From positions 1-34,179 of IMG/VR virus record IMGVR_UViG_3300028364_000011: a stretch of DNA of 34,179 nt; one strand, given 5' to 3'. The translations under genes were made by a program, and so were the position numbers. The DNA is from a virus. Below the pieces are notes generated by a model, which was not told the DNA's origin, ran no database searches, and was given only the letters and a program-made list of their open reading frames with translations. This document shows positions 10,271 through 33,487 of this stretch, one piece after another (positions within the stretch are counted from its first letter, which is position 1; each line of letters opens with the position of its first letter).

Positions 10271-10306
10271 ACAAAAAAAACCGTTACAATTTAATGCAAC
10301 GGTTTT
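10271..10306 (-). terminator. Terminator after the small inserted gene(s) in the tail operon
   Basis: AAAACCGTT (10277-10285) pairs with AACGGTTTT (10298-10306), a 9-bp stem, with a run of A's at 10273-10280 giving the U tract on the minus strand. It separates the tape measure and the small gene(s) at 10330-10660 from the distal tail gene. Confidence 0.8.
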
Positions 10307-10329
10307 AGTATTATTTATTTTAATCTTTA

Positions 10330-10434
10330 CTATTTAATGGTTTTAATATAGTATATTATTTTTTTAGGAGTTTTGTAAATTTTTATTTCAGCAACTGATT
10401 TTGCTAAAAAGTTATTGTTTTTATTTTTTTTCAT
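10330..10434 (-). CDS. Possible 34-residue basic peptide
   Basis: ATG at 10434, TAG at 10330-10332. The 34 residues begin MKKNKNNNFLAKSVAEIKIY and are very lysine-rich. It overlaps the end of the 79-residue gene by 14 bases and ends before the terminator, so it is in the same mini-operon. The composition is also what AT-rich DNA would give by chance, so reality is uncertain. It could be a small DNA- or RNA-binding peptide. Confidence 0.35.
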   Translation of the reverse strand: MKKNKNNNFLAKSVAEIKIYKTPKKIIYYIKTIK

Positions 10435-10660
10435 TGTGTTTTAAAATTAATGTTACTTTAAAAAATGTACCTCTTTTTGTTAGATGAGTACTTATTCCAA
10501 GTACTTCAAAATGCAAACCATTTAATAAATAAGTATGCTTTATTAAATCGTAAACATCATAAACAATAGCCCCTGTTATTTCCCCGTTTTGGTTCGTAAT
10601 GCAAAACGCTTTAAAAACAGACATTATCTCTTTTTTAGCCCGTTCAATTTCTATTTTCAT
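10421..10660 (-). CDS. Unknown 79-residue protein in the tail operon with its own regulated promoter
   Basis: 79 residues beginning MKIEIERAKKEIMSVFKAFC, with a mixed alpha/beta pattern and no membrane segment or signal. I do not recognise the family. What is striking is the setting: it lies between the tape measure and the distal tail gene, but has a promoter module almost identical to that of the early operon (10677-10726) and a terminator behind it (10271-10306). That is the layout of a moron, an added gene expressed on a different schedule from its neighbours. Possible roles include host control, immunity to other phages or regulation. The function is open. Confidence 0.7.
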   Translation of the reverse strand: MKIEIERAKKEIMSVFKAFCITNQNGEITGAIVYDVYDLIKHTYLLNGLHFEVLGISTHLTKRGTFFKVTLILKHNEKK

Positions 10661-10676
10661 AATTTTTAAGTTTTAA

Positions 10677-10726
10677 CAAAGATAAAACAAATAACCTAAT
10701 AAGGTATTATTTAACAAACTTTAACA
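10677..10726 (-). promoter_or_regulatory. Promoter-operator module, second copy (tail-operon locus)
   Basis: On the plus strand, in order: CAAAGATA (10677-10684, a TATCTTTG -7 box on minus), AATAACC (10690-10696), 6 bases, GGTATT (10703-10708), then TTTAACA twice (10710-10716 and 10720-10726), exactly 10 bases apart. The same elements with the same spacing to within one base are found at 33181-33231. The arms form an inverted repeat and the tandem TTTAACA copies lie on one face of the helix, as expected for regulator binding. It begins right after the tape-measure stop and drives the 79-residue gene. Confidence 0.75.
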
Positions 10727-10727
10727 T

Positions 10728-31587: not shown

Positions 31588-32124
31588 CTATTTATTGGTT
31601 AATTTTAATTTTAATTCGTTTTTTAACGGTTCGGTTCTTTTTTGCTCGTAAGCATTTAAAGCCTTCCACGTTGTGCCTAATGATTCAAAGTCTTTGGAGT
31701 TAAGCAAATCCTTTTCGTTTTGCTTTTGCTCGGCTGTTAGCGGTTTTGGTGGTTCAACTGCCTTTTGCCCATCATCGTCTGCACTTCCAACGCTTACAAA
31801 ACTTTGCAATCCGTAACGTCTAGCGTAGCTTATACCACTTCCTTGACTTTGTGCGTCGTTTATCTTTGAAAATATAATCTCGGTCAAAGATTCTATTTGT
31901 TCGCCTGATTCATGCAAAAGAATAGTTTTAACGTAGTTTTTACCATCAAAAATAGTGGTCGGCTGCAAAACTACAATCCCGTTGTTGTTGAATGCAGGAA
32001 GCACTACTTCTAAAATACTATTTAGGTCTGCATATTTATTTTTAAAAAATGGATTTAAAGCGGTTTTTTTTGGCGTGACCATTTCCATTTGTGCTTTTAC
32101 TAATGCTGTTGCTAAATTTTTCAT
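31588..32124 (-). CDS. erf: ERF-family single-strand annealing recombinase
   Basis: 178 residues. Anneals complementary single strands in phage recombination, perhaps for circularisation. ERF pattern: MVTPKKTALNPFFKNKYADL at about 15-34, LEVVLPAFNNNGIVVLQPTT, and GSGISYARRYGLQSFVSVGS with the family's conserved SYARRY block, then DDDGQKA. The C-terminal 50 residues are charged and less conserved. Sits with SSB-like and other early genes, as expected. Confidence 0.9.
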   Translation of the reverse strand: MKNLATALVKAQMEMVTPKKTALNPFFKNKYADLNSILEVVLPAFNNNGIVVLQPTTIFDGKNYVKTILLHESGEQIESLTEIIFSKINDAQSQGSGISYARRYGLQSFVSVGSADDDGQKAVEPPKPLTAEQKQNEKDLLNSKDFESLGTTWKALNAYEQKRTEPLKNELKLKLTNK

Positions 32125-32572: not shown

Positions 32573-32734
32573 TTAATAATTTTTATTTAATTCAGATAAT
32601 GGCTTATCAAAGTTCGGGTCTAATATTATAACCTCTATTTCTTTTGCGGTTGCGTTTAACAACTCATTTAATCGCTTTAATTCCGCTTCTAAAGCTTTAA
32701 TTCTTTCGGCCTGGTATTCTATTACTTCTATCAT
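32573..32734 (-). CDS. Small coiled-coil protein
   Basis: ATG at 32734, overlapping the stop of the gene upstream as ATGA; TAA at 32573-32575. 53 residues beginning MIEVIEYQAERIKALEAELK, a clear coiled coil with heptad spacing, then IEVIILDPNFDKPLSELNKN. Tight packing and heptads make it likely real. Unknown role, perhaps an adaptor for neighbouring recombination proteins. Confidence 0.68.
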   Translation of the reverse strand: MIEVIEYQAERIKALEAELKRLNELLNATAKEIEVIILDPNFDKPLSELNKNY

Positions 32735-33156
32735 AAAGCGTTCATTTTAACGGTTAATAAATCAATTTCTTTTTGAAGTTCCGATTTTTGGTCTGCAAAA
32801 GTTTTAGATTTAAAAACAGCTTTTTGATTTTCTGTCCCTTCTATTCCAAAATCTGAATTACAAAGTGATCCTGCGAACGTAAAAAAATACAACTTAATGC
32901 CTTCAAAATTTAACATTACAGATGATCCACTATTATTTTCAACCGTGTAATTCCCTTCCGTTAAATCGTTAGATATTTTAGTTTTTACAAAATCTAAACA
33001 TTTTTTAAAGTTAAAATTTACCCTCGGGATGTTGTCAATGTGTTCTTCTACAATTAGAGCATCTTCCCTATCTAATTGTAAATAAACGTCATCAAAATTC
33101 TTTTCTCTAGGTGTTTCGTTTGCTGGCGACATAAAGTCTAAGTGATGTAAGTCCAT
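32731..33156 (-). CDS. First gene of the early leftward operon, unknown
   Basis: 141 residues from the ATG at 33156 (MDLHHLDFMSPANETPREKN). A longer frame to 33222 would run through the promoter box, so the shorter start is chosen. It has an acidic start, a middle ALIVEEHIDNIPRVNFNFKK, a beta-rich centre (VMLNFEGIKLYFFTFAG) and a C-terminal coiled coil (FADQKSELQKEIDLLTVKMN). It is transcribed from the module at 33181-33231, so it is probably among the first phage products. First early genes often act on the host; the function is unknown. Confidence 0.65.
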   Translation of the reverse strand: MDLHHLDFMSPANETPREKNFDDVYLQLDREDALIVEEHIDNIPRVNFNFKKCLDFVKTKISNDLTEGNYTVENNSGSSVMLNFEGIKLYFFTFAGSLCNSDFGIEGTENQKAVFKSKTFADQKSELQKEIDLLTVKMNAL

Positions 33157-33180: not shown

Positions 33181-33231
33181 CAAAGATATAACTAATAACC
33201 ATTGTAGGTTATTTTTTAACACACTTTAACA
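33181..33231 (-). promoter_or_regulatory. Early promoter-operator module, first copy (divergent region)
   Basis: CAAAGATA (33181-33188; TATCTTTG on minus), AATAACC (33194-33200), 6-base spacer, GGTTATT (33207-33213), a perfect 7-bp inverted repeat, then TTTAACA at 33215-33221 and again at 33225-33231, exactly 10 bases apart. The same set is at 10677-10726. It lies between the early operon and the HTH gene, whose product is the natural candidate to bind it. Confidence 0.78.
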
Positions 33232-33252: not shown

Positions 33253-33260
33253 TATCTTTG
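33253..33260 (+). promoter_or_regulatory. Promoter (-7 box) for HTH gene and thyA unit
   Basis: Plus strand TATCTTTG, 14 bases before the ATG of the HTH gene. The TTTAACA pair lies 22-38 bases upstream, so a protein bound there could control both directions. Confidence 0.6.
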
Positions 33261-33274
33261 TAAAAAAAATAATT

Positions 33275-33487
33275 ATGAATTTACTAAAATTATTGATTGA
33301 AACTTCTGGCCTAAATCAGGCAAAATTTGCGGAAAAAGTAGGTAGAAAACCTCAGCATATTAGCCGGCAAATTAAAAGCGGCGGCGGAATGCATACGAAA
33401 ATGTTTTTTGAATATGCTGAAATACTCGGGATAGAGGAACTAAAATTTAATTACAAAAACACAAGTGTAACTTTAAACTTTAAATAA
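33275..33487 (+). CDS. Cro/CI-type HTH regulator
   Basis: 70 residues. One XRE-type helix-turn-helix: NQAKFAEKVGRKPQHISRQI at about 14-33, followed by KSGGGMHTKMFFEYAEILGI and a short beta-rich tail (FNYKNTSVTLNFK) that may form a dimer interface. Too short for a lambda CI-like repressor with a cleavable domain, so it is closer to Cro. It stands at the divergent promoter region and probably binds the AATAACC/GGTTATT or TTTAACA elements there and at 10677-10726. Target sites are inferred. Confidence 0.85.
   Translation: MNLLKLLIETSGLNQAKFAEKVGRKPQHISRQIKSGGGMHTKMFFEYAEILGIEELKFNYKNTSVTLNFK

Follow-up and report, generated by a model that had tools for sequence, protein, structure and literature searches.

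The question raised by this locus is which regulator, of the phage or of its host, acts on a short promoter-operator module that one small phage genome carries twice. The window, that is, the whole stretch of 34,179 nt analysed here, is an IMG/VR phage record, taken as circular because of a 116-bp direct repeat at its ends. Its terminase (TerL) is 72% identical to that of Olleya phage Harreka_1, with Nonlabens phages as the next matches, which makes a Bacteroidota, probably flavobacterial, host likely. In the same comparison, GenBank entry OQ791282.1 ("Shigella phage Henu10") had terminase coordinates and identity equal to those of Riemerella phage PT15 (ON933637.1), and may be mislabelled. 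Nearly all genes of the window are oriented leftward; the rightward cluster comprises a gene for a helix-turn-helix (HTH) protein (33275), a 154-aa ORF, a thymidylate synthase gene spanning the record ends and two small ORFs. The window proteins scanned, which represent part of the ORFs, included no recognisable integrase.

An earlier note on this DNA had described a module of about 50 bp occurring twice, 11.5 kb apart on the circle, and had taken it to point to a single regulator of both copies, with the HTH protein as the likely binder. The two copies are indeed located at 33181-33231 (site A) and 10677-10726 (site B), with a measured separation of 11.56 kb, and a BLAST comparison within the record aligned them with 80% identity over 79 bp (E 1.9e-14), so that the pair is not due to chance. 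The 13 bp from CAAAGATA to AATAACC recur at both sites, as do the two TTTAACA copies exactly 10 bp apart, a 0-mismatch TGTTAAA-N3-TGTTAAA being present in the window only at sites A and B (Table 1). The inverted repeat AATAACC-N6-GGTTATT is perfect at site A, its sole perfect copy, but degenerate at site B; by itself it has no significance in DNA so AT-rich, and its support comes from its conservation and covariation in relatives.

Both modules are read on the minus strand, where CAAAGATA reads as the -7 box TATCTTTG, and they therefore serve the genes running from 33156 to 32731 and from 10660 to 10421, respectively, and not the HTH gene. Site A has the structure TGTTAAAGTGTGTTAAA-N26-TATCTTTG and site B TGTTAAAGTTTGTTAAA-N25-TATCTTTG; TATCTTTG matches the Bacteroidota -7 element TAnnTTTG, with the ATG 24 nt (site A) or 16 nt (site B) downstream, while no TTG/TTTG -33 element lies 17-23 bp upstream in the spacer of either site. 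On sequence grounds, sites A and B are Bacteroidota-type promoters with a tandem TGTTAAA-N3-TGTTAAA box, and their description as promoter-operator units, consisting of a minus-strand box, a spacer palindrome and a -7 element, is supported.

Table 1. Features of the two promoter modules and of the genes around them in the window.
Feature	Position	Strand	Remarks
Site A tandem box TGTTAAAGTGTGTTAAA, 10-bp period	33215..33231	-	Candidate site for a host RprY-type response regulator
Site A palindromic operator AATAACC-N6-GGTTATT, between box and -7	33194..33213	.	Perfect inverted repeat; proposed HTH site
Site A -7 element TATCTTTG (TAnnTTTG)	33181..33188	-	26-bp spacer without TTG -33
First gene of leftward early operon, 141 aa, unknown, served by site A	32731..33156	-	
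ERF-family ssDNA annealing protein, early operon	31588..32124	-	Pfam PF04404, E 2.9e-24
-7 element TATCTTTG of divergent HTH gene	33253..33260	+	Tandem box ends 21 bp upstream
HTH protein of Cro/XRE type, 70 aa, putative repressor	33275..33487	+	PHROG 1373, E 2.6e-7
Site B tandem box TGTTAAAGTTTGTTAAA	10710..10726	-	
Site B degenerate palindrome, TAATACCTTATTAGGTTATT on minus	10690..10709	.	3 mismatches to site A palindrome
Site B -7 element TATCTTTG	10677..10684	-	25 bp from box
Moron cargo gene, 79 aa	10421..10660	-	
Moron intrinsic terminator	10277..10306	-	12-bp stem and T tract; -15.5 kcal/mol, z -5.0

The AF2 model of the HTH protein (pLDDT 88.6) has four helices and a C-terminal beta hairpin and, together with the PHROG matches, assigns the protein to the XRE/Cro-type fold, a four-to-five-helix HTH in a small polypeptide. 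Its structural matches in Foldseek are HipB, HigA2 and the 434 repressor, all with weak E-values, and such a fold would suit a predicted dimer bound to a palindrome. Site A is present in all 13 contigs that carry relatives of the HTH protein or of site A, and in all 13 the palindrome is kept, varying between classes, with the rest of the promoter nearly invariant. Recognition helix VGRKPQHISRQIKSGGG pairs with AATAACC-N6-GGTTATT, helix VGRNPAHISRQKINGGN (contigs L132 and L133; VGRHPAHISRQKINGGN in L048) with AATACCTT-NA-AAGGTTATT, and helix VGREPQNISRQKKNGGN (L054) with GATAATC-N6-GATTATT, in which compensatory bases occur on both arms. Three palindrome classes thus match three helix classes, the covariation comprising these three only. 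The palindrome would thus form an additional operator specific to the phage, with the HTH protein as its probable ligand, and such binding at site A is judged quite likely. As a binder the HTH protein is therefore a good candidate for the site A palindrome, kept in 13 relatives and changing with the recognition helix, but a poorer one for the degenerate copy at site B. Small genes are swapped opposite site A, where the first divergent gene begins MGLIGLS..., MKLENGM... and MNHLQLL... in L054, L092 and L125, respectively; in L054 and L125 this extra gene separates the promoter from the HTH gene, and L092 has a non-HTH gene in the first divergent position.

Site B follows the stop of the tape-measure gene and precedes the next tail gene. 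The two genes abut, with no insert between them, in L457 and L458 (87% identity in the tape measure), and in L456 (95% identity) there is an insert with the box, TATATTTG, the same terminator hairpin and a different cargo gene. Among relatives the module is found at site A, but at site B it is missing from two of the three closest, a divided outcome for the refuting condition set in the earlier note (absence from both places in close relatives). The site B unit resembles phage morons in being a single gene, lodged among tail genes with a promoter and a terminator of its own, that relatives lack or replace by another; it departs from them in that its promoter appears to duplicate the early promoter of the same phage. 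By these features, site B is the promoter of a one-gene moron with its own terminator, inserted in the tail operon. Searches found no relatives of the 79-aa moron protein. The moron slot (window 10277-10727 and L456-L458) holds two single-gene cargos, with promoter and terminator in common, and is empty elsewhere. The site B palindrome resembles the group-2 class, that of relatives with a different HTH helix, and is weaker still in L456, which makes joint control of both sites by the HTH protein doubtful and leaves the box and the -7 element as the firmest shared parts of the two sites. A search of the 13 HTH- or site-A-bearing relatives, all of them fragments without a recognised tape-measure gene, gave no second site comparable to site B.

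Scanning of viral contigs with TGTTAAA-N3-TGTTAAA-N(15-40)-TAnnTTTG yielded at least 120 matches, against only 30 for the reversed-repeat control in the whole viral collection. After removal of near-identical spacers, the distinct viral promoters among the matches listed numbered 26 at 25-28 bp, 24 at 36-38 bp and 2 at 29-35 bp; single-linkage clustering of the listed loci gave 34 groups, a smaller number than that of the distinct promoters defined by their spacers. The same two phases were seen with the 11-bp-period version of the box. Since they lie one helical turn apart, this is the pattern given by an activator touching RNA polymerase. To judge by these matches, the tandem box is a recurrent element of many Bacteroidota phages and so is not private to the window phage. 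The reversed control, AAATTGT-N3-AAATTGT (L268-L297), itself forms a small cluster at spacer 37 (10/33 matches), possibly reflecting one phage group or another phased element. Among seven cultured phage records scanned, Riemerella phage RAP44 is the one clear case, with an exact TGTTAAAATTTGTTAAA and TATATTTG at spacer 38 (L474, 48103-48164, minus strand). This box lies between a lambda-repressor-like gene and an early gene, the latter immediately downstream, and the annotation of RAP44 includes an integrase-like protein. Only an isolated one-mismatch match each was seen in Larrie (first 50 kb) and 11b, at spacers 21 and 31, and no box was found in P12024L, 6H, phiST (first 50 kb) or Harreka_1, the nearest cultured phage by TerL.

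The same box/-7 pattern, applied to bacteria and archaea with a single genome for each species, gave, among the matches listed, almost exclusively Bacteroidota, with a spike at spacer 26. Fifty of the 119 listed matches lie directly upstream of homologs of one histidine kinase, and they are concentrated by spacer: 39/60 at 26 bp, 8/10 at 27, 2/5 at 28, 1/4 at 36 and 0/40 elsewhere. The gene that follows the kinase encodes an OmpR-family regulator, whose best NCBIfam model is RprY (NF051850) with 301-308 bits, below the curated cut-off of 370 but leading the other models (145-167 bits) by more than 130 bits, with the kinase adjacent. Two further box-bearing host genes encode Do/HtrA proteases. 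Since this genome scan had selected on the motif, promoters were next sampled without motif selection. In Sphingobacteriaceae, 24 of 26 rprX promoters have a GTTAA pair of period 10, at spacer 26 (17) or 27 (7), which is exactly the phage arrangement (period 10, spacer 26 or 25). In Flavobacteriaceae, to which the host of Harreka_1 belongs, GTTAA-N5/6-GTTAA occurs at rprX in 29/32 and at htrA in 26/30 cases, with an 11-bp period as a rule and spacers of 26-27 bp in 48 of the 51 measured for the two genes; if the host is flavobacterial, this period is a mismatch to the 10 bp of the phage. Shuffled promoters contained a GTTAA pair in 0-0.6% overall and in 0-0.3% for the Flavobacteriaceae set, and the exact phage pattern gave 23 matches in 296 Bacteroidota genomes, while the backwards pattern gave 0. 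The htrA/degP and rprX genes likely belong to a conserved Bacteroidota envelope-stress regulon. In the Flavobacteriaceae genomes L476-L505 and L299-L341, htrA/degP and rprX have the same box and spacing, and the genes are often about 30 kb apart on a contig.

RprY is an OmpR-family regulator with an adjoining kinase gene in most Bacteroidetes (passages of PMC3646045, PMC6032018 and PMC4072883). In the parts of these articles considered, EMSA shows binding of Porphyromonas gingivalis RprY to the clpB, groES and dnaK promoters as well as to its own (PMC3646045), the protein is described as a possible repressor, and rprX/rprY are essential in Bacteroides fragilis (PMC4072883). A literature search found neither an RprY motif nor a Bacteroidetes phage promoter motif, and the passages of PMC3646045, PMC6032018 and PMC4072883 give none. 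Relative to the published RprX/RprY systems of Bacteroides and Porphyromonas, the box is here proposed as the RprY motif, which phages also carry.

The earlier idea that one phage regulator explains the shared features of both sites is not supported by these distributions, since the shared TTTAACA tandem is phylum-wide and also stands before the host rprXY-like operon and htrA; with the same phase there as in phages, it favours a host response regulator at the two sites. Control of both sites by the HTH protein through their shared elements would agree with the position of its gene next to site A and with the covariation of its recognition helix, but the box occurs in hosts and in many phages that have neither this HTH protein nor the palindrome, and the palindrome at site B is a degenerate one of another variant, with the moron site of L456 diverging further; this explanation is regarded as very improbable. 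The HTH protein as sole regulator of the whole module was rejected for the tandem box, which exists without it, and so was a lambda CII-like reading, in which an HTH protein binds 10-bp direct repeats (a weak CII-like PHROG match was noted), since the box is present in hosts as well and the HTH model resembles HipB and the 434 repressor. Binding by a host factor other than RprY, for example by a Bacteroidota PhoB or another OmpR/PhoB-family regulator, has in its favour that OmpR-family sites are tandem repeats of 10-11 bp. The WalR box TGTWAH-N5-TGTWAH and the CpxR box GTAAA-N5-GTAAA resemble the tandem box. Nevertheless, the box precedes rprXY itself in nearly all genomes sampled, in two families, which is the usual sign of autoregulation, and no phosphate-regulon gene was recognised among the host matches listed, so another such factor is thought unlikely.

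It is about as unlikely, or slightly more so, that the tandem TGTTAAA is an UP element contacted by the alpha-CTD of RNA polymerase and merely strengthens phage and host promoters. The repeat centres, at about -43 and -53, do coincide with UP subsites, a version one turn upstream exists, and a TTG -33 at 19-20 bp accompanies the box in many phage promoters. The host box, however, is strict in sequence and marks one operon and htrA, not rRNA or ribosomal genes, and the TTG -33 is mostly absent from host promoters of the same class; moreover, a heptamer with a G is no A-tract, and the AT-rich reversed repeat was without enrichment.

The preferred reading is that site A is activated by a host RprY and repressed by the HTH protein, with site B as a drifted copy, and the probability of this whole account is put at roughly two in three (0.66). 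Site A would be the main leftward early promoter, with two layers of control. The box, 26 bp before the -7 element, would replace the missing -33 and be bound by the host's RprY-like OmpR-family regulator, which would activate the phage promoter in the same way as rprXY and htrA. Binding of RprY to the box at phage promoters is considered likely and, given binding, activation rather than repression is even more so, in view of the box position and the missing -33. A dimeric HTH protein, made from the divergent gene, would bind the palindrome and block RNA polymerase. The box-bound regulator would also sit on the -33 region of the HTH promoter, and early transcription and HTH synthesis are therefore predicted to oppose each other. 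Site B would be a copy of the site A promoter serving the moron, with box and -7 element kept and the palindrome drifted.

Cyanophage Pho boxes are used by the host PhoB (Zeng and Chisholm, 2012, cited in PMC10976474), and the hijack of a host response regulator is therefore known, whereas its RprY-type version appears to be new. As in cyanophages, the window phage promoters putatively bear the tandem box of a host OmpR/PhoB-family regulator and answer to host physiology; the genes under cyanophage Pho boxes, however, include that for DNA polymerase and auxiliary genes related to phosphate, controlled under P limitation, while in the window phage an RprXY-like host system would act on a moron and on the main early promoter. 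A passage of PMC10976474 warns that predicted phage Pho boxes are unreliable without binding data, and this applies to the RprY-type phage box as well. Site A is similar to lambda-type immunity regions in its divergent promoters, small Cro/CI-type HTH gene and palindromic operator inside the opposing early promoter, and differs in having one operator, no recognised integrase among the proteins scanned, an early promoter without -33 and a host-type activator box.

A broader and more tentative proposal, held at somewhat less than even odds, is that the early promoters of numerous Bacteroidota phages, unrelated to one another, are coupled to the host RprXY-like envelope-stress system, each lineage adding its own repressor operator in the spacer, and that the box is the phylum-wide RprY regulon motif. 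Early transcription would then be switched on by a factor that is essential in one or more Bacteroidota species and possibly by envelope disturbance as the phage enters. If true, this would provide a DNA motif for the Bacteroidota RprXY-like system, with a predicted core regulon of rprXY itself and htrA; phages across the phylum would read the same signal, and the host envelope-stress pathway would be a candidate determinant of phage success. For the annotation of early genes and morons in Bacteroidota phages, many of them unannotated, the corresponding promoter rule would be the box, 26-27 or 36-37 bp, and TAnnTTTG.

A palindrome in the spacer was rejected as a general rule of box-bearing phages, because only 3 of 31 distinct phage spacers reached p<0.05, as did 4 of 70 in hosts; the palindrome is therefore lineage-specific. 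Contigs L045, L053 and L009 have palindromes of their own in the same spacer (GTAGCAAATTTGCTAC, AATGTAG-N8-CTACATT and TGCAA-TTAT-TTGCA, respectively), perhaps representing lineage-specific operators.
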